Source of the DNA: Luteibacter sp. UNC138MFCol5.1
GTDB taxonomy: Bacteria > Pseudomonadota > Gammaproteobacteria > Xanthomonadales > Rhodanobacteraceae
Direction: 5' to 3'
DNA length: 64,000 bases
Assembly (NCBI RefSeq): GCF_900110505.1
Contig: NZ_FODZ01000001.1
Coordinates: 62,001-126,000, forward strand
Shown: positions 4,413-48,180 of the stretch, piece by piece
How the letters are laid out: each line of letters begins with the position of its first letter
Numbering within the stretch: position 1 is the first letter of the stretch
Translations under genes and position numbers: made by a program
Notes under the pieces: model-generated
The model's input: only the letters and a program-made list of their open reading frames with translations
Told to the model about the DNA's origin: nothing
The model's database searches: none

Positions 4413-5144
4413 ATGAAGTCCAGCGACATGCCGGTCGACAGCCTGCTGATCGTCGACGACGAGCCCGACGTGCGGAACCTGCTCGCGCGCTATTTCAACG
4501 CGCAAGGATTCGCCACCGCGACAGCGGCCGACGGCGCGCAGATGCGCGAACACCTGCAGCGCAGCCGTGTCGATCTGGTGCTGCTCGACCTCGGGCTACC
4601 GGGCGAGGATGGCCTCTCCATCACCCGTTACCTTCGCGAGGCCTGGCAGGGTCCGGTGGTCATCGTGACCGGGCGCGGCGAGCCGGTCGATCGCGTCGTA
4701 GGGCTCGAGCTCGGGGCCGACGATTACGTCACCAAGCCCTTCGACCTCCGCGAGCTGTTGGCCCGCGTGCGTAGCGTGCTGCGTCGCGCGAGGCAGGCGT
4801 CGCAGGCCCCTGCGCGAAACACCCCGCCGGCCTTCGCCTTCGCCGGGTTCACGCTGGATACCGCGGCGCGCACGCTGCATGCGCCCGACGGGCGCCCCAT
4901 CGCGTTGACGACCGGCGAGTACGCGCTGCTGCGCGTGCTGGTGGACCATCCCAACCACGTGCTGACACGGGACCAGCTCATGACGAAGTTGCACGGGCGC
5001 GACACCGGTCCGTTCGACCGCGCCATCGACGCCCAGGTGGGCCGTTTGCGCCGGAAGATCGAAACCGATCCGCAGCGGCCCCGGCTGATCCAGTCCGTGC
5101 GCGGCACGGGTTATGTCTTCACGCCCACGGTGCGCAGCACATGA
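4413..5144 (+). CDS. OmpR/PhoB-family response regulator
   Basis: A 243-residue two-domain regulator. The receiver domain (about 10-125) has the acidic pocket DDE at 15-17, the phospho-acceptor Asp at about 59 in LLDLGLPG and the conserved Lys in TKPFD. The winged-helix domain (about 145-235) ends in RGTGYVF. The ATG at 4413 follows GAAGGGTGG, better than the in-frame ATG far upstream at 4272. The gene overlaps the next gene by ATGA, so regulator and kinase are translated together. It probably responds to the signal sensed by the PAS domain of the downstream kinase. Confidence 0.93.
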   Translation: MKSSDMPVDSLLIVDDEPDVRNLLARYFNAQGFATATAADGAQMREHLQRSRVDLVLLDLGLPGEDGLSITRYLREAWQGPVVIVTGRGEPVDRVVGLELGADDYVTKPFDLRELLARVRSVLRRARQASQAPARNTPPAFAFAGFTLDTAARTLHAPDGRPIALTTGEYALLRVLVDHPNHVLTRDQLMTKLHGRDTGPFDRAIDAQVGRLRRKIETDPQRPRLIQSVRGTGYVFTPTVRST

Positions 5145-9353: not shown

Positions 9354-10250
9354 TCAGTGCGAGAAGAGGATGGGAATCGGTGCGTCGAGGAAGAGTTCGC
9401 GCGTCACGCCCCCGGCGGCCCACTCGCGCAGACGCGAATGTCCGTAGCCGCCCGATACCAGGAGCTGCGCGCGCGTGCGGGAAGCGTGCGACAGCAATGT
9501 GGCGGCGACCGTCGACTCGCCCGGGTCGACCACGAGGCTTCGTGCGTCCACGCCGTGGCGCCGCAGGTGCCTGCACAGGTCGTCGAGGCGACGCCCCGCG
9601 GGGGGCACCGCCGGGTCGCGGCGAACCGAGACGATGTCGACGGCGTCGCAGCCGCGCAGAAGCGGCAGCGCGTCGTTCACCGCGCGCGCGGCTTCCGGCG
9701 CGTCCGTCCAGGCGACCATCGCGCGACGCGGCGGCAGCGTGGCGGTCGAGGTCGACGGGACGACGAGCACGGGACGTCCCGCACCGGCGAGCAGTCCGCT
9801 GAAATACGCGTGCACGACGGAGGTGTCGATCGGCGCCCGGAACGGCAAGGACAGCACGACCAGATCCGTCGTGCGCGCGGCGTGCGCCGCCAGCGCGGAC
9901 GGTTCGATGTACAGCGCTTCCAGCACACGGACATCGCCTTCCACCCGCTGCGCCGCGAGCTTCCCACGCCACGCTTCGCTCTCCTTCCGCGCGAGCTGCC
10001 GCATGTCGTCGTACACCTGGTAGAAACTCGCGTCCGGCACCAGCGACCATGCATCGACGAACGGCGTGGGCATCAGGAGCATCTGTAGCAGCTCCAGCCG
10101 GCTGCCGAAATGCCGTGCGAGATCGACGGCTGCCTCGAAAGCGGACGAATCGCCCGGGACGCCCGTAAGCGCCACGGCGATATCGCGGAAGGCGTGGCCG
10201 ACCACGTGTTGGGAGGCCTCGACGGTTTCGTGCGCGGTCGATTCGGTCAT
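9354..10250 (-). CDS. Tandem-domain universal stress protein
   Basis: A 298-residue protein with two Usp domains (about 18-150 and 160-298). The first starts DIAVALTGVPGDSS and the second RRAMVAWTDAPEA, ending GGYGHSRLREWAAGGVT. It is clearly paralogous to the gene at 16830: both share the segment with DAWSLVPD or DAWALIPD and similar C termini. The ATG at 10250 was chosen because the longer open frame runs through the FNR-type box at 10305. A -10 TATAAC 31 bp from that box centre fits a class II activated promoter. It is first in an operon with the gene at 8430. Confidence 0.9.
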   Translation of the reverse strand: MTESTAHETVEASQHVVGHAFRDIAVALTGVPGDSSAFEAAVDLARHFGSRLELLQMLLMPTPFVDAWSLVPDASFYQVYDDMRQLARKESEAWRGKLAAQRVEGDVRVLEALYIEPSALAAHAARTTDLVVLSLPFRAPIDTSVVHAYFSGLLAGAGRPVLVVPSTSTATLPPRRAMVAWTDAPEAARAVNDALPLLRGCDAVDIVSVRRDPAVPPAGRRLDDLCRHLRRHGVDARSLVVDPGESTVAATLLSHASRTRAQLLVSGGYGHSRLREWAAGGVTRELFLDAPIPILFSH

Positions 10251-37846: not shown

Positions 37847-38869
37847 TCAGACGCCCGGCGGGTTCGAGTCGAGGACCTTGACCTTCGGGCCCGTCGATTC
37901 GGGCTGCATGCTCTCGTCGGTCGCGAGGAGGACGGAACCCGGGGTAAGGAAGGGCAGCACCTTCTCCATGAATTCGCGTGGCACGGCGACGCGATCGACC
38001 AGCGCCTCGCTGACGACCTTGCCGGCTTCGTCACCGTGGCCGGGAATGCCGATGGTGATCCAGTTCGGCATGCGCAGGCCGTTCCGTTCCGGCATGAAGC
38101 CCGCGGCGACGATGAAGGCGTGCGTGCCCACCAGTGGGTCGGTGACCTGCACGCGGCTGCGTCCGATCTCGATGCCGTTGCGCATCACGATCACGGTGCC
38201 GTCCGCGACACTCAGGACCATGGAGATCGGACCGCTCGGCGACGCATCGGGCGTCCATCGATAGGGCTGCCCATCCGCCAGCGGCGCCAGCGCGAGATCG
38301 GCGCCGTTGCGCGGGTCGATCGGAATGACGGCGCTGGGATGCACCACGGATACCGGCGCCGTTCCTTCCTCGGCCACGACGACCGTCATGCCCATGTTCG
38401 TGGTGTCGAACAGGAGGCGCGCGAACTCCGTCGGCATGTGCACGCAGCCATGCGACTCCGGATACCCCGGCAATCCACCGGCGTGCAACGCCACACCATC
38501 CCAGGTGAGGCGCTCCTGATAGGGCATGGGCGCGTTGTCGTACTTCTTCGAGTGGTGATCCTTGTCCTTCTGCAGGATGGAGAAGACGCCGGTCGGTGTT
38601 TCGTGCCCCTTCTTGCCGGTGCTCACCGTGCTGACGCCGATCAGGATGCCGTTGCGATACACGTACGCGCGCTGCTCGGTGAGGCTGACGATCACCGCCA
38701 TCGGACCAGGCGACTTGTCGCGGGCGCCCCAGATCCATTGCCCGGGCTTGAGCGCGGATGGCGGCGTATCCGCCGGACTCGACTGGAGGGAGCCCCAGAT
38801 GGGTACGGCGGCCTGAGCGGCCGAGGCGAGCGCGACGGACAGCGCGATGCCGATGAGCAAGCGTTTCAT
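37847..38869 (-). CDS. Periplasmic L,D-transpeptidase (YkuD)
   Basis: A 340-residue protein with a signal peptide (LLIGIALSVALASAAQA). The YkuD catalytic domain has HAGGLPGYPESHGCVHMP, which gives the active-site His, Ser-His-Gly-Cys and downstream His. It should form 3-3 cross-links or attach proteins in the peptidoglycan. The C-terminal ~150 residues contain a second, degenerate repeat of the fold (VADGTVIVMRNGIEIGRSR) without the Cys motif. GGAG precedes the ATG at 38869. It is separated from the lanthipeptide genes by a strong hairpin. Confidence 0.92.
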   Translation of the reverse strand: MKRLLIGIALSVALASAAQAAVPIWGSLQSSPADTPPSALKPGQWIWGARDKSPGPMAVIVSLTEQRAYVYRNGILIGVSTVSTGKKGHETPTGVFSILQKDKDHHSKKYDNAPMPYQERLTWDGVALHAGGLPGYPESHGCVHMPTEFARLLFDTTNMGMTVVVAEEGTAPVSVVHPSAVIPIDPRNGADLALAPLADGQPYRWTPDASPSGPISMVLSVADGTVIVMRNGIEIGRSRVQVTDPLVGTHAFIVAAGFMPERNGLRMPNWITIGIPGHGDEAGKVVSEALVDRVAVPREFMEKVLPFLTPGSVLLATDESMQPESTGPKVKVLDSNPPGV

Positions 38870-39032: not shown

Positions 39033-41726
39033 TCAGGCGGCCGCGTGGACCTGACGATGCACGTGGACCATCGGGAGGTGTTCGTCGAGCATGAACGACG
39101 CGGAGGCGCCACGCCGCAGTCGATCGAAGAAGGCGGCCACGCCGGCATTGCCGGTGGCGAGGTCGCAACTCAGGCGGAGCAGTTCGGTGCCAGGCACCGC
39201 GAGCCCCTGGGCACGCCGGACGAGGAACGGCTCGATGCCCCCTGCCACCTGGCGGGCCGCGGCGACATAGGCCTCCTCACCATCCGGGAACAGCATGGCG
39301 AGGTCGAGCAGGACCTCGCCGATGCCAGCGAGGCCTTCGGCCATGCCGGGCGAAATCGCGTGCCGTCGCATGAGGTCACGCTGCATTTCCTTCGTCATAT
39401 CGAGGTAGCGCTGCTCGCCGGTCACCGCGTGGAATCGCGCGGCGACGGCCGCCACACCCGCCGTGCCATGCCGGAGGTACGGGTACAGCGTCACCCCATC
39501 GACCTGCTTCGGCCAGCTGGGATCGCCATCGGGATTCGCGCGGCGTTGCGCGATGTCGAATGCCAGCGCTTCCCGCGCCGCGCGGAGGAAGCGCGCGTTC
39601 GCGCCCGCCGCGACATGCAGGTGAAGAAGGAAGAGCGCGACCCCCGAGGCGCCATGCCCCAGTCCGACCGGCTGTGGCCGGGACGAATCCCAGTGCAGCG
39701 TGCCGTCTCCACCCCGGTCGTAACCGGCGTCGTGCAACAGCGTTTCGCCCACGTCGATGGCCGCATCGAGGAAATCGTGATCGCCCGTCTCGTACCAGGC
39801 CTTCAGCCGCGCCAGGCCCCACCCCGCCATGCCGTCGTAGAGCCCGGCTCGCGCCCGGATAGCCTCGTCGAGCGGAGCCCTAAGCAACGTCAACGCCACT
39901 TCCCGCTCGCCGGCGTCCAACAGCACCCAGGCGATGCCGGCGTCGCCATACATCAGGCTCGACCCGCGGTCCCGCTTGCTGCGCGCACCGGCGAGGACAT
40001 AAGAAAGCAAACCCTCTGGCGCACGGCGGCCGCCGCGCATGTAGGCATGGAGAACGCCGGCGGCACCGTGCGCGACGCCCCACGGGTGGCTCTCGAATAC
40101 TTCGGGACCGGCGGGAACGAAGCGGTCCGGACGTGCCACGGACGCCATCGCGTCGATGAACGCGAAGAGCTCGCCGGCCGGGTCCATGCCGCCGGGATGT
40201 GTCGCGGGGCGCGCAGGCAACGGCCCGTCATCGCGGTGAAGCGCTTCGACCGCCTCGCGCAACGTGGCCATCGCCGCCGTCGGCGACGGACGCCGCGCGG
40301 GGTCGCTCGACAACAGCGCGTCGATGGTCTCGACGAACACCATCGGATAGCCCATGTCGCGGCACATCGTGCGCGTGAAACGCAGCGCCGCGTCGCGGTC
40401 GAGCGGCAGCATCGCGTTCATGGGCATCATCGCCGCGAGCAGGTTCGAGCCGAACGCGTATGCGTCCTCGGCGCGGGTGTCCACCGGTTCTTCACGCCGG
40501 GGGCGCGGCGATGCGAAGCCAGGCGTCCGCACGTCCAGGGGCATATCGAGCCCATCTTCGACCGCCGCCTCCATGTCGATGAGGCGGATGTCGCCATCCC
40601 GCATGACGATGCAGTTGTGGAACGACAGGTCGCCCAGCGACACACCCGCCGCATGCACGCGCTCCACCGCCTGCGCCATGCGCGTGAAAACCCGCACGAC
40701 GTCGTCGAGGTAGGCAAGTACGTCCTTGCGCCCGGCGCGCGTCTTCAGCCACGGGTACCGGCGCGCGAGCCAGCTGCGTAACGTATCGCCCTCGATGTAC
40801 TCCTGGACGAGATAACTGTGCTCCCAGTCCTGGAAGTGCGCGACGGGGAGCGGCGCCACGTGCAACGGCGCGAGGCGACGAAGCAGACGGAACTCCTTGC
40901 GCAACGTCGCGGTGGCGGTTTCGCCACCGCCGACATACGGCCGCGCCTCCTTGATGACGATGGGCCGGCCTTCGTCAAGATCGTCGCCCAGGTAGACGCC
41001 GCCCGCGGAAGAGAAGGTCAGAGCGCGGCGTATCCGATAGCGGCCGCCCGCGAGGTGCGCGCCGCGGATGCCCTTCGCATCGTCGTCGCGAGGAAAGGGG
41101 TCGCGCAGCCACTCGGGCAGGTGGAAGTGCGGCTTGCGCTCGTCGGGCTCCATCGCGCCGTCGGGCCGGCGCAAGAGCCACTCGCGCCGTCCATCCGCGA
41201 GGGTGCGATGCTCACCGGCGATCCCACCGTAGCGGTAGTAGAGCACCCGCGAGTCGCGGTAGCGCCGGTCGCTGAGCACATAGGGCCCCGCATAGCCGGA
41301 CAAGGCTTCGTGCAGGTCTTCGATCACGCGCCGGAAGTCTTCCACGCCGCGCGGGTACACCGTGATGAACTTGCCCGAGCCGCCGCGCGGCCAGCGCTTG
41401 CCGTTGACGGCCGCGTGCATGCGTGAGTCCGCGGCGAACTTGAATGCCGTTCCCGAGGCGACCAGCGTGGCCGCGGCGATGGCGAGCACGATGCGGGCCG
41501 TCGAAGCGACGCTGGAGATGTGGATTTTCCATCCCTGGGTGGGCAGACAGGCGCCCGGTGGTGTGCACTGCATCCAGATGCCCGACCTGTGGAAGGTCCA
41601 TGTGCCGGGAACGATGCGTCTTACGGGTTCAATGAAGTCGGCGGTATCGACATCGCGTCGTGCGAAGGGTTCGAAGAATTCCCGATCTACCGCCGTGTAC
41701 TGCAAAAGCTCGGTGCGTCGCTCCAT
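39033..41726 (-). CDS. lanKC: Class III lanthipeptide synthetase (lyase-kinase-cyclase)
   Basis: An 897-residue three-domain enzyme. The N-terminal lyase domain (about 1-215) has QGWKIHISS and GSGKFITVYP. The kinase domain (about 225-500) has the Lys in VIKEARP, catalytic GDLSFHN and metal motif LIDMEAA, replacing DFG. The C-terminal LanC-like cyclase (about 530-897) has GLYDGMAGW, GHGASGVALFL, YLRHGTAGVA and LATGNAGVAAFF; the zinc Cys-Cys-His set of class I, II and IV enzymes is not seen, which is typical of class III. It phosphorylates Ser/Thr of a precursor, eliminates phosphate and cyclises Cys onto the dehydro residues. It lies 154 bases downstream of the precursor gene. Confidence 0.95.
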   Translation of the reverse strand: MERRTELLQYTAVDREFFEPFARRDVDTADFIEPVRRIVPGTWTFHRSGIWMQCTPPGACLPTQGWKIHISSVASTARIVLAIAAATLVASGTAFKFAADSRMHAAVNGKRWPRGGSGKFITVYPRGVEDFRRVIEDLHEALSGYAGPYVLSDRRYRDSRVLYYRYGGIAGEHRTLADGRREWLLRRPDGAMEPDERKPHFHLPEWLRDPFPRDDDAKGIRGAHLAGGRYRIRRALTFSSAGGVYLGDDLDEGRPIVIKEARPYVGGGETATATLRKEFRLLRRLAPLHVAPLPVAHFQDWEHSYLVQEYIEGDTLRSWLARRYPWLKTRAGRKDVLAYLDDVVRVFTRMAQAVERVHAAGVSLGDLSFHNCIVMRDGDIRLIDMEAAVEDGLDMPLDVRTPGFASPRPRREEPVDTRAEDAYAFGSNLLAAMMPMNAMLPLDRDAALRFTRTMCRDMGYPMVFVETIDALLSSDPARRPSPTAAMATLREAVEALHRDDGPLPARPATHPGGMDPAGELFAFIDAMASVARPDRFVPAGPEVFESHPWGVAHGAAGVLHAYMRGGRRAPEGLLSYVLAGARSKRDRGSSLMYGDAGIAWVLLDAGEREVALTLLRAPLDEAIRARAGLYDGMAGWGLARLKAWYETGDHDFLDAAIDVGETLLHDAGYDRGGDGTLHWDSSRPQPVGLGHGASGVALFLLHLHVAAGANARFLRAAREALAFDIAQRRANPDGDPSWPKQVDGVTLYPYLRHGTAGVAAVAARFHAVTGEQRYLDMTKEMQRDLMRRHAISPGMAEGLAGIGEVLLDLAMLFPDGEEAYVAAARQVAGGIEPFLVRRAQGLAVPGTELLRLSCDLATGNAGVAAFFDRLRRGASASFMLDEHLPMVHVHRQVHAAA

Positions 41727-41880: not shown

Positions 41881-42009
41881 CTACTCTTCGAATCCGTCCG
41901 CGTTGGCGGCCGAGCAGCCTCGGTTGCTGCAGCTGCTGTAGTTCGTCGCAGTTTCGTCCGCCTGTCCCATGTCCGCTTCCAGGCGTTGTAAATCGAGTAT
42001 CCGCTCCAT
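41881..42009 (-). CDS. lanA: Class III lanthipeptide precursor peptide
   Basis: A 42-residue peptide read on the minus strand, preceded by GGAGG four bases before the ATG. Residues 4-11 are ILDLQRLE, the conserved class III leader motif recognised by LanKC. The C-terminal half (from about 23) is the likely core: it has Ser25, Ser26, Cys27, Ser28, Cys32 and Ser33, so Ser25-x2-Ser28-x3-Cys32 fits the labionin pattern. It ends with an acidic tail GFEE. Rare codons for this genome (ATA, TTA, CAA, CGA) occur. The gene is immediately followed by lanKC. The leader cleavage site and the protease are unknown. Confidence 0.88.
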   Translation of the reverse strand: MERILDLQRLEADMGQADETATNYSSCSNRGCSAANADGFEE

Positions 42010-42066
42010 CGTGCCTCCGTTGCTGGTTTGGAAACGTACGCCTGCGGAAGGTGCGGGCGCGGGCAG

Positions 42067-42096
42067 AATCTAGGACCGCCAGGAACGGGCAGACAA
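42067..42096 (-). promoter_or_regulatory. Predicted sigma-70-type promoter of lanA
   Basis: On the minus strand -35 TTGTCT (42091-42096) and -10 TAGATT (42067-42072) are 18 bases apart. The transcript would start near 42060, about 50 bases before the lanA ATG. Confidence 0.5.
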
Positions 42097-42179
42097 CACC
42101 CTGACTGCGGTTTGCGCGTCGATCGATGCCTGGCGCGTGATGTTTTTGTGCCGACCGTATCGAATCCGGTCAGACGGTC

Positions 42180-42213
42180 GTCCGGAAGCGGACGCACCCG
42201 TCCACTTCCGGAC
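42180..42213. promoter_or_regulatory. Tandem dyads, candidate response-regulator operator for lanA
   Basis: GTCCGGAAGCGGAC (42180-42193) and GTCCACTTCCGGAC (42200-42213) are each GTCC-N6-GGAC dyads with centres 20 bp apart; together they can also form a long hairpin with one mismatch. They lie about 120-150 bp upstream of the predicted lanA start. They could instead be a terminator after the kinase gene, but there is no T run. Confidence 0.5.
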
Positions 42214-42224
42214 AGCCGCGGATG

Positions 42225-43571
42225 TCATCGCAAGGGTTCGAGTGGAAGACGGACGCTCGCTATGGCGCCACGGCCGTCCCGGCGCGGAACGAGATCCACG
42301 CTGCCCGCATGCGACTCGACGATGAGCCGTACCAGGCTGAGTCCGATACCCGAGCCTTCCGCCTTCGTGGTGAAGAACGGCACGAACAGGGCATCGCTAT
42401 CCGGGAGCCCGGGTCCGTCGTCTTCGATCACGACGCAGACGAAGCGTTCGTCCGCCGACCAGTCGAGGCGGACGCCGCCGCCCAGGGGGAGCGCCGCCTC
42501 CACCGCGTTGCGCAGCAGGTTGATGAACGCCTGGGCGAGCTGGTCCTCGTCGCCGTGGATCGTGACAGGCGCCGTCCCCTCGACCACGATGCGTAGACGG
42601 CGCTCCAGGACCGCGAGGCGCAGCAGCGACAGGTCCAGCCGGAAGATGGATGGGCGCAGGGGCGGAAGTCTTGCCAGCTTCCCATAGCCCGAAAGGAAGC
42701 GACCGAGGGAATCGGCCCGGCGTCCGATCGCCTCGAGGCCCAGACGCATCTCCTCGGCCGCGTCGAGCTCCGGTCCGAGCAGCGAGGCAAGACTTCCTGC
42801 GAGTGAGCCGATGGGACCGAGCGAGTTGTTGAGTTCGTGGCTCAGCACGCGAATCAGTCGTTGCCATGCGCGGCGCTCTTCCTCACCCAGCGTGACGCTG
42901 AGGTCGCGCAACATGATCAGCCGGTGATCGCGCCCGTTACTGCGCCATGATGCGCGACGGATCGCCCAGCGCCCATGCCCCCCGGGAAAGCGACCGGAGA
43001 TCACGGCGTTGTCGGGCGCTTCGAGCGCTTCGCCGAGCGCGAGGCTCGACAGATCGCGGCCGACCACCGAGGTGCGTTCCGCGCCGATCAGGCGACGCGC
43101 CGCCGGATTGATGAGGCGCAACCTGTTCTGGTCGTCGACCACGAAGATCGGATCCTGCAAGGCGATCAGCGTCTTACCGAGGAACCGCGATGCCTCCGTG
43201 CGCTTGCGGCGCCCGTCCCGCAGCTCGTCGCCGAGACGGTTCACGTCGCGCACCAGTTGCTGCAGCGGGTCGTAGCCGGGCCGTACGCGACCGCGGATGC
43301 CCAGGTCTCCCTCGCTCATCGCGGCGAGCAGGTCGGACACCGTGGTGAGTGTGCCGAGCATGCGGTTCGTCGCGATCCAGCCAAGCAGGAGCGTCGCCCC
43401 CATGCCGAGGCAGAAGATGAGTAGCCGATCCGTCCAGCCGAGGTTGTCGATGAGTACCAGCGTCGCGCCGGCGATCGTCGTCGGCGCCAGACTCGCACCG
43501 ATCCATGCGGCCGCGCCGAGCCGGACGAGGCGTCCATCCACGAGTGCGATGCCGCTGGCGTCCTGCGTCAT
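42225..43571 (-). CDS. NtrY-like sensor histidine kinase
   Basis: A 448-residue kinase from ATG 43571. Two membrane helices (about 15-60) are followed by a HAMP-like region, a PAS domain (about 130-220: LQDPIFVVDDQNRLRLINPA), a HisKA box (VLSHELNNSLGPIG) and an HATPase domain (NLLRNAVEAALP, DDGPGLPD, GSGIGLSLV). SHELNNSL is the NtrY-type form of the H box. It starts seven bases after the regulator gene's stop, so both are cotranscribed. It probably phosphorylates that regulator in response to an envelope signal; the N-terminal sensor part has almost no periplasmic loop. Confidence 0.9.
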   Translation of the reverse strand: MTQDASGIALVDGRLVRLGAAAWIGASLAPTTIAGATLVLIDNLGWTDRLLIFCLGMGATLLLGWIATNRMLGTLTTVSDLLAAMSEGDLGIRGRVRPGYDPLQQLVRDVNRLGDELRDGRRKRTEASRFLGKTLIALQDPIFVVDDQNRLRLINPAARRLIGAERTSVVGRDLSSLALGEALEAPDNAVISGRFPGGHGRWAIRRASWRSNGRDHRLIMLRDLSVTLGEEERRAWQRLIRVLSHELNNSLGPIGSLAGSLASLLGPELDAAEEMRLGLEAIGRRADSLGRFLSGYGKLARLPPLRPSIFRLDLSLLRLAVLERRLRIVVEGTAPVTIHGDEDQLAQAFINLLRNAVEAALPLGGGVRLDWSADERFVCVVIEDDGPGLPDSDALFVPFFTTKAEGSGIGLSLVRLIVESHAGSVDLVPRRDGRGAIASVRLPLEPLR

Positions 43572-43578
43572 GGAGACC

Positions 43579-44958
43579 TCAATCGACGGACTCGAAGGTG
43601 CCACGCGATCGCTGCTTCTCGAGACGGCGGTACAGCGCTTGCCGCGAGATGCCGAGGTCGTCGGCGGCCCTCTGCAGATTCCGGCCATGACGGGCCAGCG
43701 CCTGCCGGATCAGCAGGTCCTCCGCTTCCGGCAGGGTCAGCGTGTCGAGCAGCAGCGGGGTGCCGGACGGACGGTGCAGGCCGAGCGAATCGGCGTCGAT
43801 CTCGTCTCCCGCCGCGAGGAGCACCGCGCGCTCGACCGCGTGCTCGAGCTCGCGGACGTTGCCGGGCCAGTCGTACCCGCGCAGCGCGCGCTCCGCCGAT
43901 GGCGCGAACGACATGGCCGAGCGCGACCGCCGCCGGCACTCGTAGAGCAGAAAGTGGCGCGCGAGCGGCACGATGTCGTCCGAGCGCTCGCGAAGCGGCG
44001 GCAATCTCACCTGCATCGCATTCAGGCGGTAGAGGAGGTCCCTCCGGAAACGCTCGCTGCGTATGGCCGCCTCGAGGTCCATGTTCGTGGTGGAGATCAC
44101 GCGTACGTCGACACGCCGTGTGCGCATGGTGCCGCCACGCTCGAGCTCGCCCTCCTCCAGGACGCGCAGCAGCTTCGCCTGTTGCGAAGGCTGGATGCTG
44201 CCGATTTCTTCCATGATCAGCGTGCCGCCGTTCGCCAGTTCGAAGCGCCCGGGCCGCGACACGGGACCCTCCTCGCCGAACATCTCGTCCGCGAAGCGCG
44301 ACTCCGGCAGGCTGCTCATGTCCACGCGGATGACCGGCTCCTCCGCACGCGGCGAGCGCGCGTGGATCTCGCGCGCGAACAGCGATTTGCCGGTACCGTT
44401 CTCCCCGCTGATGAGCACATGGGCGTCACCACGGGCGATGCGGTCGATGAGCTCCACCACCCGGCGCATGGCCGAGGATTCGCAAGCCCGAAGAATGTCT
44501 CCCGCCTGTCGTGCGAGCGCCGTTTCTTCACGCAGGCGCCGGTTTTCGTCCCGCATCGTCCGCAGCGCGATCTGGCTACGGACCGAGTGGACCAGCCTTG
44601 CGTTATTCCACGGCTTTTCGACGAAGTCGGCGGCGCCGAGCTTCATGGCGCGAACCGCGAGGTCGACGCTCCCCCAGCCGGTCATCGCGATCAACGGTAC
44701 ATCCGGCGCTTCGTGGCGCATGCGCGTGACGAGTTCCAGGCCCTCGTGCCCCGAGGTCGTGTCCGCGGCATAGTTCAGGTCGACGAGCGCGCACCCGAAG
44801 TCTTCACGAGCGATCGCGTTCATCGCGCCCGCCGGCGAGTCGACTTCGACCGAGCGAATCCCCTCGGCGCGGAGCAGGATGCGCATGGCCAGCCGAACAT
44901 CGGGGTGGTCGTCGACGACGAGCACGGCGGCGCCCGCAGCGTGGGCATCGAACTTCAT
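43579..44958 (-). CDS. NtrC-type response regulator lacking the GAFTGA loop
   Basis: A 459-residue protein with receiver (about 10-130, phospho-Asp in CALVDLNY), AAA+ domain (about 150-385) and Fis-type helix-turn-helix (AADDLGISRQALYRRL). Walker A is GENGTGKS. Where sigma-54 activators have GAFTGA, this protein reads FGEEGPVSRPGRFE, so the sigma-54 contact loop is gone; Walker B is LIMEEI instead of the usual L-x-DE. It probably controls sigma-70 promoters as a DNA-binding switch. GAGGTG before the ATG at 44958 is better than the site of the upstream in-frame ATG. Confidence 0.9.
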   Translation of the reverse strand: MKFDAHAAGAAVLVVDDHPDVRLAMRILLRAEGIRSVEVDSPAGAMNAIAREDFGCALVDLNYAADTTSGHEGLELVTRMRHEAPDVPLIAMTGWGSVDLAVRAMKLGAADFVEKPWNNARLVHSVRSQIALRTMRDENRRLREETALARQAGDILRACESSAMRRVVELIDRIARGDAHVLISGENGTGKSLFAREIHARSPRAEEPVIRVDMSSLPESRFADEMFGEEGPVSRPGRFELANGGTLIMEEIGSIQPSQQAKLLRVLEEGELERGGTMRTRRVDVRVISTTNMDLEAAIRSERFRRDLLYRLNAMQVRLPPLRERSDDIVPLARHFLLYECRRRSRSAMSFAPSAERALRGYDWPGNVRELEHAVERAVLLAAGDEIDADSLGLHRPSGTPLLLDTLTLPEAEDLLIRQALARHGRNLQRAADDLGISRQALYRRLEKQRSRGTFESVD

Positions 44959-44995: not shown

Positions 44996-47389
44996 TCACT
45001 CGCGGCGAAACGCGCGCCACGGGTCGATCGATGCCGCGCGAAGCGCCGGCCCGAGGACGGCGAGCGTCGTGAAGAGAATCATGATCGCCGCACCCGTGGC
45101 GGCATCGGAACCATCGACGGCCTGCGCGCCGGCGTGCGTCGGCGACAGCCAGTGACGGAGTACGAGAACGCCCAGCAGGCCCAGCGCGACGCCGGGCACC
45201 GCGTTGCCGAGCGCGTGGCGTACGATCAGTGTCACGAGAGCCGCGGGCGTTGCGCCGAGCGCGCTACGAATCGCGAGAGTGCGCGTTCCCGCGGCTACCT
45301 CGAAAGCCTGTACCGAATAATGGCCGACGCAGGCGAGCGACACCGCGAACGCGGCGAGCGTGGCGAACAGGACCGCATCGCGTCGCGCAGCCGCGTTCGC
45401 AAGTCTGGCTATCCGGTCGAGGGGGCGTACATGGCCGAGCGCAAGCCCGGGGGCGATGCCACGCACCAGATCGGTGAACGCTTCGTGCGCCGCGATGCGC
45501 GCTCCGGGCCCGCGCAGGACCGCGTAGATGGGCAGGAGATTTCGCACCGCGCCGTATGACGCCGTCACCTGGGCGATAGGCATCACCACCAGGGGCTCGC
45601 CGTCCATGGCGTCGCTGCTCTCCGATCGCCGGGTATCGGCGAGGACGCCGACGATCCGGGCCGTTCCGGTCGCCGACCCGGCCTGACGCAGGTCCGCGCC
45701 GAGTCCTCGCCCGTCGATCTTCTCGAGATAGGCGCGGTTGACGATCGCCACCGCCGGCGCGCCGGCGACGTCACCCTCGTCGAACCAGCGCCCGGCGACC
45801 TTCTGGAACCCGAGCGCCTTGGCGGCACCCGGCGTCACCATCGCGAACCTCAGGTAGTCGGTGCCGCCGTCGCCCCGACGGAATGGCATGACGAAGCGCG
45901 TGCCGAGCGGTAGTTCGCTGGACCACCCGAACATCGCGACGCCCGGCAGCCCCGTCGCCTTCCGCCTGATCTCATCCAGCAGGCTCATGACGTTCCTCGT
46001 CTCGGGATAGCGGTTCCGGTCCGGATGCACTTCGACCACGGCGGTGTTCGCCTGATCGAAGCCGAGCGGCAGGCCCTCGAGTTGCGTGTATCGGGTGACG
46101 GTGGCGACGCCGAGGATCAGAAGTACCGTCGCCAGCGCCGACTGCGAGAGGGTCACCATCGCTCGTGCGCGACGCATGCCAGGGCTGCCGATACCGGCGC
46201 CGTTCGCGGCGAGTTGCTGTCGCAGGATCGCGTCCGACGTCCGCCGCGCGGCGACGCAGAGCGCGGCGACCAGCGCGATCGCGGCCGTGACGAGGAAGGT
46301 GGCGCATACCGTGCGAACTTCGGGAAAGGGCGGCGCCGCGGAGGCGATCCACAGGTCCGGCAGGAACGGGCGGTACACGACGACGACCAGCGTGCCGAGC
46401 GGAAGGCCCAGGAGCGTGGCCACGATCGCGACCATGGCGCCCTCGGTCAAGGCGGGAATGAAGGGGCGCCACCCGCTCGCCCCGAGCGCGACCTGGAGGG
46501 CTATCTCCGGCGAACGCCGGAGCGAGCGGACGAGCATCAGGTTCGCTACGTTCAGTGCGGCGAGGATGAGTACCAGCCAGGCACAGAACACGAACGGCCA
46601 GACCGGTGCGCGTCCGGTGCGCGCGACGAGATCGTCGATCGGCGTCGCCCCGTACCACGGCATGTCGTCCGGACCGAGGTGCAACGCCGCGGCATCGCGG
46701 TTCACGGCCAGGGCGACGGCGCGCGACAGGGCGTCCGGACCCACCCCAGGGCCAAGCAGACCGACCGCGGTCATGTTTTCCGCGGTGGCGCTGCCCACGG
46801 GCGGTGCGGCCGGCAGGATGAGCAGGTCGACATCGCTGAAGAAGCGGTAGTCACGCGGCAGCACGCCGACGACATGCATCGCGCTTCCGTCGACGACGAT
46901 CGTGCTCCCGACCGCACCCCCGCTTCCGCCGAAGCCACGTTTCCACAAGGCATGCGAGAGCATGACTTCGCTGTTGCCGGTCCCGCCGCGAAAAACACGA
47001 CCGGCATCGGCACGCACCCCCAGGGTATCGAGGAATCCCGCGTCGACGCGCTGGGCGCGCAGCAGTTCGTCACGGCCGTTCCATGTCGCGTTGACCGGCT
47101 CGGGCATGTAGGCAAGACCATGCGACTTCAACAGGGGCGAAGGCGCGATGGCCGCGTAGAGTCGTGGCGAGATCGCGCGCATCGGGTCGCCCGCGGTTCG
47201 CCCGCCGAAGATGACGACGCGCTCGTGGTTGGGCCACGGGAGCGGGCGGACGAACAGCGCGTCGAGCAAGGTGAATGCACCGAGCAACGCGGCGACGCCC
47301 AGGGAGAGAGTGACCGAAGCGAGCGCAAGGAAGGCGGGCTGGCGCAAGAGCGCACCACCCGCTCTTGCGACCTCGGTCGCCCATGTCAC
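44996..47389 (-). CDS. MacB/FtsX-type ABC transporter permease
   Basis: A 797-residue membrane protein starting with GTG that overlaps the ATPase stop by GTGA. One helix lies near the N terminus (FLALASVTLSLGVAALLGAF). A large extracytoplasmic MacB-type domain follows, then two FtsX-like helix bundles (about 280-420 and 680-790) with a second extracytoplasmic domain between. This duplicated-permease form is frequent in proteobacteria and acidobacteria next to NtrC-type regulators. Together with the ATPase it should form an exporter or a mechanotransducing pump. Export of, or protection from, the lanthipeptide is inferred from position only. Confidence 0.88.
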   Translation of the reverse strand: MTWATEVARAGGALLRQPAFLALASVTLSLGVAALLGAFTLLDALFVRPLPWPNHERVVIFGGRTAGDPMRAISPRLYAAIAPSPLLKSHGLAYMPEPVNATWNGRDELLRAQRVDAGFLDTLGVRADAGRVFRGGTGNSEVMLSHALWKRGFGGSGGAVGSTIVVDGSAMHVVGVLPRDYRFFSDVDLLILPAAPPVGSATAENMTAVGLLGPGVGPDALSRAVALAVNRDAAALHLGPDDMPWYGATPIDDLVARTGRAPVWPFVFCAWLVLILAALNVANLMLVRSLRRSPEIALQVALGASGWRPFIPALTEGAMVAIVATLLGLPLGTLVVVVYRPFLPDLWIASAAPPFPEVRTVCATFLVTAAIALVAALCVAARRTSDAILRQQLAANGAGIGSPGMRRARAMVTLSQSALATVLLILGVATVTRYTQLEGLPLGFDQANTAVVEVHPDRNRYPETRNVMSLLDEIRRKATGLPGVAMFGWSSELPLGTRFVMPFRRGDGGTDYLRFAMVTPGAAKALGFQKVAGRWFDEGDVAGAPAVAIVNRAYLEKIDGRGLGADLRQAGSATGTARIVGVLADTRRSESSDAMDGEPLVVMPIAQVTASYGAVRNLLPIYAVLRGPGARIAAHEAFTDLVRGIAPGLALGHVRPLDRIARLANAAARRDAVLFATLAAFAVSLACVGHYSVQAFEVAAGTRTLAIRSALGATPAALVTLIVRHALGNAVPGVALGLLGVLVLRHWLSPTHAGAQAVDGSDAATGAAIMILFTTLAVLGPALRAASIDPWRAFRRE

Positions 47390-48180
47390 CACAGCGTATC
47401 GCCGGCGCGCAGGGCTTCCAGTCCCGACTCGGACTCGCTGCGCAGCTGCTGGAACGTCGACTCGTCGACGACGCGGCCGTCGAGGAGGCGGATCGTACGT
47501 TCGGCCATCGCGGCGAAACGGTCGTCGTGCGTCACCATGCAGACGGTCCGGCCGGCGGCGTGCTGGCGGGCGAGCAGGCCCATGACGATCTCGCCATTGC
47601 GCAGATCCAGGTTTCCCGTCGGTTCGTCGGCCAGCAGGATGGCTGGATCGCCCACGAGCGCCCGCGCGACCGCGACCCGCTGCTGCTGCCCGCCCGACAG
47701 CTGCGTGGGGAAGTGTCGCATGCGATGGGCCATGTCCACGCTGGCCAGCGCGCTCGCGACCATCCTCGTGCGCTCGCGCCAGCCGATGTCCTTGCGGTAG
47801 GCCAAGGGCAACGCGACGTTGTCGGCCACGGTGAGGTCGTCGATCAGGTTGAACGACTGGAACACGAATCCGATGTGCTGGTTGCGCAGCCGCGAACGCT
47901 CCGCTCGGCCGAGCCCGCGCATGGATTCGCCCGCGAAACGGAAATCGCCGTAGGAAGGCACGTCGAGGAGTCCCATGAGCGACAGCAGCGTGGTCTTGCC
48001 GCATCCGGACGGGCCGCCGATCGCCACGAATTCTCCAGCGCGCACGGAGAGATGGATGTCGGTAAGCACGTGCGTCTCGACCGACCCGGTCTGGAAGACC
48101 TTGCCGACCCCTCTCATCTCGACGATCACGGGCCGATCCGGGGCTTGCATGGGCGCACTCACTTCGGGAGCGATTCGCAT
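47386..48180 (-). CDS. ABC transporter ATP-binding protein (MacB/LolD type)
   Basis: A 264-residue ATPase. It has Walker A GPSGCGKTT, Q loop FVFQSFNLIDDLT, signature LSGGQQQRVAVARAL, Walker B AILLADEPTGNLD and the switch His in MVTHDDR. These are the hallmarks of the MacB/LolD/FtsE group. An internal ATG (codon 11) is an alternative start. It is first in the five-gene row ATPase-permease-regulator-kinase, then lanA and lanKC, all on the minus strand. Confidence 0.93.
   Translation of the reverse strand: MRIAPEVSAPMQAPDRPVIVEMRGVGKVFQTGSVETHVLTDIHLSVRAGEFVAIGGPSGCGKTTLLSLMGLLDVPSYGDFRFAGESMRGLGRAERSRLRNQHIGFVFQSFNLIDDLTVADNVALPLAYRKDIGWRERTRMVASALASVDMAHRMRHFPTQLSGGQQQRVAVARALVGDPAILLADEPTGNLDLRNGEIVMGLLARQHAAGRTVCMVTHDDRFAAMAERTIRLLDGRVVDESTFQQLRSESESGLEALRAGDTLW

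Follow-up and report, generated by a model that had tools for sequence, protein, structure and literature searches.

We describe a six-gene unit of Luteibacter sp. UNC138MFCol5.1 that carries lanA, a short gene for a candidate lanthipeptide precursor. The unit lies in a window of 64,000 nucleotides (the whole stretch of DNA that was analysed), and its genes run in one direction in the order ABC ATPase, ADOP-like permease, response regulator, histidine kinase, lanA, and lanKC. The features of the locus are as follows.

47386..48180, minus strand: LolD/MacB-type ABC ATPase, assigned from family models.
44996..47386, minus strand, start approximate: ADOP-like (duplicated MacB_PCD/FtsX) ABC permease, assigned from family models.
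43579..44958, minus strand, start approximate: response regulator with receiver, AAA, and Fis-type HTH domains and no GAFTGA loop.
42225..43571, minus strand, start approximate: histidine kinase with two short hydrophobic N-terminal segments, PAS, and HATPase.
42199..42214, minus strand: distal palindrome TGTCCG-N4-TGGACG of the predicted operator, 20 bp from the proximal one.
42179..42194, minus strand: proximal palindrome CGTCCG-N4-CGGACG of the predicted operator.
42091..42096, minus strand: predicted -35-like element TTGTCT, followed by an 18-bp spacer, assigned from conservation.
42067..42072, minus strand: predicted -10-like element TAGATT, assigned from conservation.
42014..42018, minus strand: GGAGG ribosome-binding site, read directly, with a 4-nt gap to the ATG.
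41881..42009, minus strand: lanA, class III lanthipeptide precursor of 42 aa, assigned from family models and genus-wide conservation.
41977..42000, minus strand: leader motif ILDLQRLE, residues 4-11, with L7 and Q8 invariant in 21/21 precursors.
41914..41937, minus strand: core ring motif S25-x2-S28-x3-C32, with C27 (present in 12/21 precursors) inside it.
39033..41726, minus strand: lanKC, class III lanthionine synthetase of 897 aa (lyase, kinase, and LanC-like cyclase), assigned from NF038151, PF25816, PF00069, and PF05147.

The frame from 42009 to 41881 translates to MERILDLQRLEADMGQADETATNYSSCSNRGCSAANADGFEE followed by a stop. A sequence-only reading of this DNA had proposed a 42-codon minus-strand gene with a strong GGAGG site, the leader motif ILDLQRLE at residues 4-11, and a Ser25-x2-Ser28-x3-Cys32 core with an extra Cys27. 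Direct translation bears out the gene, and the other elements are present as described, the GGAGG site at 42018-42014, 4 nt before the ATG. The LDLQ of the leader is of the LxLQ type, and the core fits the pattern S-x2-S-x(2-5)-C. The peptide passes the NCBIfam model "class III lanthipeptide" (NF038154; 24.2 bits, cut-off 22) and scores below the cut-offs of the SapB/AmfS model NF033212 (19.1 bits, cut-off 25) and the Pfam RamS model PF19402 (16.1 bits, cut-off 24.3); among the other Luteibacter precursor peptides, none of the nine scanned (of 20) reaches any NCBIfam cut-off. Elsewhere in its own genome the peptide has one further, weak match (E 1.3), which contains a stop and which we regard as fortuitous.

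The next gene on the same strand, complete and separated from lanA by 154 bp, is lanKC. Its product has RamC_N, kinase, and LanC-like domains (PF25816, PF00069, PF05147), passes the class III model NF038151 (727.6 bits, cut-off 575), stays below the cut-off of the class IV (LanL) model NF038150 (563.2 bits, cut-off 650), and matches LanKC crystal structures in sequence, for example 8sao at 8e-73. The catalytic lyase and kinase motifs are conserved in the genus LanKC alignment. Cys residues occur only at positions 54, 60, 372, 455, and 854, just one of them in the cyclase region; the Cys-Cys-His/Cys zinc triad is absent from the cyclase, and the inferred His-equivalent position is acidic in 20/20 sequences.

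We followed the synthetase through a Luteibacter set made up of the window genome and 22 others. LanKC is present in 21 of these 23 genomes and is split over two contigs in one of them (G007); G015 gives only a weak kinase-domain match and G020 none. A sample of the order holds LanKC at E<=1e-60 in 32/398 genomes, 19 of them Luteibacter, and a class-wide sample holds it in 1/369, the window genome. Together, these counts indicate that class III LanKC is nearly constant in Luteibacter and sporadic around it. One Luteibacter genome has a second LanKC-like gene (G018:C1:2277541-2280168, locus L126; 34% identity, 549 bits, below the class III cut-off), and no LQ-type precursor was found in the 900 bp upstream of it.

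A small frame with an LQ leader and a [S/T]-x2-S-x2/3-C core lies 40-168 bp upstream of the LanKC match at all 21 Luteibacter LanKC loci. A stricter regular expression recovers it at 18/20 genus loci and a looser one at 21/21; in the two late finds, G016 and G017, the leader is longer and the core very short. Relatives might have lacked a small frame beside LanKC or kept a different one in its place; what they keep, at every locus, is this frame, which together with the NF038154 match upholds the proposal of a class III precursor next to LanKC. In the alignment of the 21 precursors, L7, Q8, S28, and C32 are invariant, and position 25 is Ser in 19 and Thr in two. Cys27 is found in 12 (the window species included) and Asp38 in 19, with a gap in the two short peptides, and the residues between S28 and the ring Cys number three in 20 precursors and two in G016. 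A combined leader-and-core expression matches within 400 bp before LanKC at 20 of the 21 loci (the miss is G017) and elsewhere only twice in 947,826 bases, both strands counted. In addition, dN is lower than dS in 10/10 species pairs tested, with dN/dS of about 0.10-0.52 by NG86 on only 42-44 codons and dS >1 in three pairs. This enrichment before LanKC and the low dN mark the small frame as more than a chance occurrence. At two loci, L047 (G017, 9719-9841) and L049 (G016, 9707-9832), the cores are very short and end at or just past the ring Cys; in G017 the ring Cys is the last residue, and the other 20 cores end in another residue.

The six-gene order is identical in 20/20 complete Luteibacter loci, and G007 agrees with it up to the contig end. 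The ADOP-like permease scores 391.8 bits against TIGR03434, below the cut-off of 622.3, and the histidine kinase has no recognised sensor domain ahead of its PAS domain. A GAFTGA loop is a mark of sigma-54 activators; it is absent from 20/20 Luteibacter response regulators. In the two genomes without the unit, G015 and G020, no permease, response regulator, LanKC, or close ABC or histidine kinase match was found across some 14 kb next to the glycosidase gene that flanks the site, and the response regulator ortholog is absent genome-wide (best match 45% and 43%, respectively); G012 has it at 78%, with a second-best match at 43%. No leader protease was recognised in the six-gene unit. A conserved tailoring or protease gene was also sought downstream of lanKC; the window has an L,D-transpeptidase gene there (37847-38869), and the other 19 complete loci share conserved opposite-strand open frames instead.

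Upstream of lanA, the genus consensus is a pair of 16-bp palindromes, YGTCCG-N4-CGGACR, 20 bp apart (19 in G018). The 36-bp tandem scores 22-24 of 24 at 18/21 loci, and the background does not exceed 19; the exceptions are G018, with its shorter spacer, G001, and G013. The exact tandem (a spacer of 5-7 between inner 14-mers) occurs once per genome in 17/23 Luteibacter genomes, that of the window among them, and always before lanA, with none in a backward-pattern control. The six genomes without it comprise G010 and G016 (one mismatch), G001 and G013 (proximal box alone), and G015 and G020 (no unit). Within the window, the tandem pattern gives 1 match, against 0 in 100 shuffles. Such a near-unique operator makes the regulation of lanA directly testable.

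The predicted -35 and -10 elements rest on conservation; a scan for sigma-70 consensus promoters and for terminators found 0 of either. The distance from the proximal box to the -35-like element is 96-98 bp in 21/21 loci, while that from the -35-like element to the ATG varies over 65-97 bp. The promoter match is poor (at least 2 mismatches) in G007, G009, G013, and G014, the spacer is 17 bp in G005 and G009, and CTG replaces TTG in G006, G010, G018, and G019. A sigma-54 promoter was considered and set aside as improbable on two grounds: GAFTGA is missing from the response regulator, and the conserved elements look like TTG-18-TAGATT.

Relatives of the response regulator at E<=1e-110 are found in 30/78 genomes of a family sample, five of them Luteibacter. 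We examined nine of the 25 genomes from other genera, and the second response regulator of G009. The nine outside modules (L162-L169, L171 and L172-L179) have the arrangement MFP-ABC-ADOP(2-3)-RR-HK, and their response regulators are 54-57% identical to that of Luteibacter, with a near-identical recognition helix. A pair of boxes, 20-21 bp apart, precedes the MFP gene in 9/9, the gene starts being estimated from BLAST. Of the two boxes, the stronger reaches 11-12 of 12 in eight modules and 10 in G282; both boxes reach at least 11, clearly above background, in four (G031, G227, G231, and G207), and in the other five the weaker box scores 9-10, a common background score, with the background itself reaching 11 in two loci. 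No LanKC match was found in the 16-kb stretches around the nine modules, and a motif filter for lanA-like frames over ten 16-kb stretches gave one match, which lies in L169 past the histidine kinase gene, on the opposite strand and over another predicted gene.

These modules resemble the Luteibacter unit in response regulator, helix, and boxes, and differ from it in having two or three permeases and an MFP gene, in the placement of the boxes before that gene, and in lacking an adjacent LanKC or lanA-like frame. Similar boxes and a near-identical helix in LanKC-free modules suggest that lanA and lanKC probably joined an older transporter-signalling module: the response regulator was probably paired with such boxes before lanA-lanKC arrived, and lanA is the gene that the box now precedes. 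GAYTDA or GAFTDA is present in the 10 relative response regulators compared and absent from those of Luteibacter, which would suit a promoter that is not of the sigma-54 type.

Comparison among genomes supports the gene as real, its family assignment, the six-gene unit, and the conservation of ring motif, operator, and promoter, and we put the probability that lanA encodes the precursor of a class III lanthipeptide kept almost genus-wide in Luteibacter at about 0.9. The interpretation given in the sequence-only reading mostly holds. A rival view would make the unit a vestige, or the small frame an ORF that arose by chance in GC-rich sequence, as might be argued from the many long overlapping ORFs of the region and the altered cyclase position in the window species; a precursor at 21/21 loci, purifying selection, and a fixed promoter geometry make this very improbable, and its chance-ORF version is already contradicted. 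A separate question is whether the ABC, response regulator, and histidine kinase genes are mere neighbors of lanA with an unrelated job. Relatives of the module stand without an adjacent LanKC in nine genomes of other genera, and the permeases are the fastest-diverging genes in LanKC-free modules too. The linkage is genus-wide, however, the response regulator ortholog is jointly absent from G015 and G020, and the predicted operator lies in front of lanA, so that independence of these genes from lanA is quite unlikely. Permease and lanA show similar divergence across the genus (mean identity 0.386 for the permease and 0.396 for lanA). That the permease coevolves with the peptide was considered and rejected, since permeases are the fastest of the compared genes even without LanKC and their divergence is therefore no sign of it.

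Taking lanA as a class III precursor gene, we infer a course of events from regulator binding and a transcriptional switch, through ring chemistry and leader removal, to export or sensing and a function. The neighboring two-component system would switch lanA on through the tandem TGTCCG-N4-CGGACA operator and the TTG-18-TAGATT-like promoter. The LQ leader helix would dock LanA onto LanKC, much as the LELQL leader motif is critical in ThurKC (PMC10604976). LanKC would then phosphorylate and eliminate Ser28 and Ser25, the latter replaced by Thr in two species, and connect them with Cys32, giving either a single labionin or a lanthionine and a dehydroalanine. These two outcomes have equal mass; the calculated monoisotopic mass of the window peptide is 4567.96 Da unmodified and 4531.94 Da after loss of two waters. 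Leader removal would fall to a protease encoded elsewhere, and the ADOP-type ABC transporter may export the peptide or sense it together with the kinase. A doubtful extension, which we put forward tentatively, is that the bacterium senses its own peptide as a signal: the mature lanthipeptide would be read by the ABC/ADOP transporter together with the kinase, which has no apparent sensor domain, and the response regulator would act mainly at a single operator per genome, that of the lanA promoter, in a closed loop that arose when lanA-lanKC was added to the older module.

The sequence-only reading had called the core labionin-type. The motif stands, as Ser25 or Thr25, Ser28, and Cys32 are the conserved part of the core; labionin itself is not established, because the same motif can yield lanthionine (PMC7268733). 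LanA could thus be real and carry a plain Ser-Cys lanthionine, its other Ser left as dehydroalanine or unmodified, an outcome to which we give somewhat less than even odds. Some class III peptides with Sx2Sx3C do form lanthionine (PMC7268733, PMC11251773), Thr takes the first motif position in two species, and the window LanKC has Ala796 at the position that, with a numbering offset of 3, appears to align with Phe770 of ThurKC, whose F770A mutant lost the protected ring (PMC10604976). This Ala is the main sequence-based doubt on ring formation in the window species; across 20 genus LanKCs the position is Phe in 15, Tyr in 1, Ala in 2 (the window species and G005), Gln in 1, and Cys in 1, and the residue next to it is acidic in 20/20. 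Against lanthionine stands the three-residue motif itself, kept in 21/21, although one Ser-Cys lanthionine has no obvious need of all three residues.

The earlier suggestion that Cys27 serves a second ring or stays free is of narrower reach: since Cys27 is absent in 9/21 precursors, a second ring cannot be general, and it was rejected as a genus-wide feature that does not hold across species. Where Cys27 is present, pairing with Thr20 or Thr22 could add an N-terminal (methyl)lanthionine, and we consider two rings in these species unlikely. The residue is found in more than half of the precursors, that of the window species included, and Thr22 goes with it (10/12 precursors with Cys27, 3/9 without), a weak association among related species; the species without Cys27 include G012, the closest by LanKC (79% identical, with Phe at the inferred Phe770 position), and G010 and G019 have Cys27 and neither Thr. 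Decarboxylation of a C-terminal Cys to give avionin, as in a lipolanthine-like product, is hardly credible: G017 has the terminal Cys for it and the other 20 cores do not, and the one flavoprotein-family gene in each of G017, G016, and G000 (409-472 codons) is not near lanKC. It was rejected, with no flavoprotein Cys decarboxylase found near lanKC in these three genomes. What decides labionin formation has been named as an open question (PMC10604976), and the Luteibacter peptides, with or without Cys27, with Ser or Thr first, and with variation at the Phe770-like position, offer a short series of class III substrates for asking it.

On the evidence of these comparisons, the class III lanthipeptide system of Luteibacter is genuine and present in nearly the whole genus. 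With SapB/RamS, AmfS, labyrinthopeptins, and erythreapeptin it shares the LQ leader, the S-x2-S-x3-C core, and a single LanKC that combines lyase, kinase, and a cyclase without the zinc triad. SapB, AmfS, and labyrinthopeptins have two ring motifs, and RamR/AmfR are orphan regulators; the Luteibacter peptide has one conserved ring motif, a gammaproteobacterial host, and an adjacent histidine kinase and response regulator, and does not pass the SapB/AmfS (NF033212) and RamS models. ThurKC/ThurA of Bacillus thuringiensis has the same synthetase architecture, with an acidic residue in place of the zinc-ligand His (PMC10604976). Its leader motif is LELQL, against LDLQ in LanA, and the inferred Phe770 position is Phe, against Ala in the window LanKC. 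The ThurKC/ThurA system has seven precursors and an identified two-component leader protease (PMC10604976), whereas the Luteibacter unit has one precursor and no recognised protease.

That a proteobacterial class III system is notable, as the sequence-only reading held, is only partly right: calls in Luteibacter (PMC11165876) and Lysobacter (PMC11451712) and a product from Myxococcus fulvus (PMC9576775) have already been published. antiSMASH calls class III clusters in 4/5 strains of Luteibacter mycovicinus (PMC11165876, Table 1) and, in Lysobacter, eight clusters with three unique precursors (PMC11451712). These are of the same class and from the same genus or order, and the accessible parts of the two papers describe no precursor sequence, operator, or product. 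Experimentally identified class III lanthipeptides come from Actinobacteria, Firmicutes, and Myxobacteria (PMC12328550); the M. fulvus product was made in Escherichia coli in a study whose discussion mentions class III in Pseudomonadota (PMC9576775). The rhodanocins of that study are also lanthipeptides of Rhodanobacteraceae and differ in coming from a class II BGC with a DUF6229 precursor (PMC9576775). The main text of a Luteibacter-fungus transcriptome paper (PMC9040847) mentions no lanthi-, lanti- or bacteriocin terms. Among the matches listed from open-licence literature, neither a gammaproteobacterial class III product nor the predicted lanA operator was found. Cluster-level Luteibacter calls are thus already in print, and the regulatory and transporter setting was not met in the literature searched. 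Its retention in 21/23 genomes and the variation of its core around an unchanging ring motif suggest that the lanthipeptide has a steady role in Luteibacter, whose members include soil, plant-associated, and endohyphal strains.

Precursor-like frames also accompany LanKC beyond the genus. Each of 18 LanKC loci outside Luteibacter (13 in the order, five in other groups) has a candidate precursor, 17 with LQ and one, from a Deltaproteobacteria MAG, with MQ. In one locus set, 15 of 80 loci were scanned for precursors, namely nine from Luteibacter (L041-L049) and L051-L054, L056, and L088. Small LQ- or MQ-type frames precede LanKC in Saccharicrinis (L053), a candidate division WOR-3 MAG (L054), a Chloroflexi MAG (L051), and a Deltaproteobacteria MAG (L088). 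Two other genomes of the order, G115 (L136) and G146 (L134), have two precursor-like genes each before LanKC. At L137 (G165, 4858-5067), a longer precursor-like frame of up to 69 aa has VSGG before the core, perhaps a double-glycine leader within a class III system.
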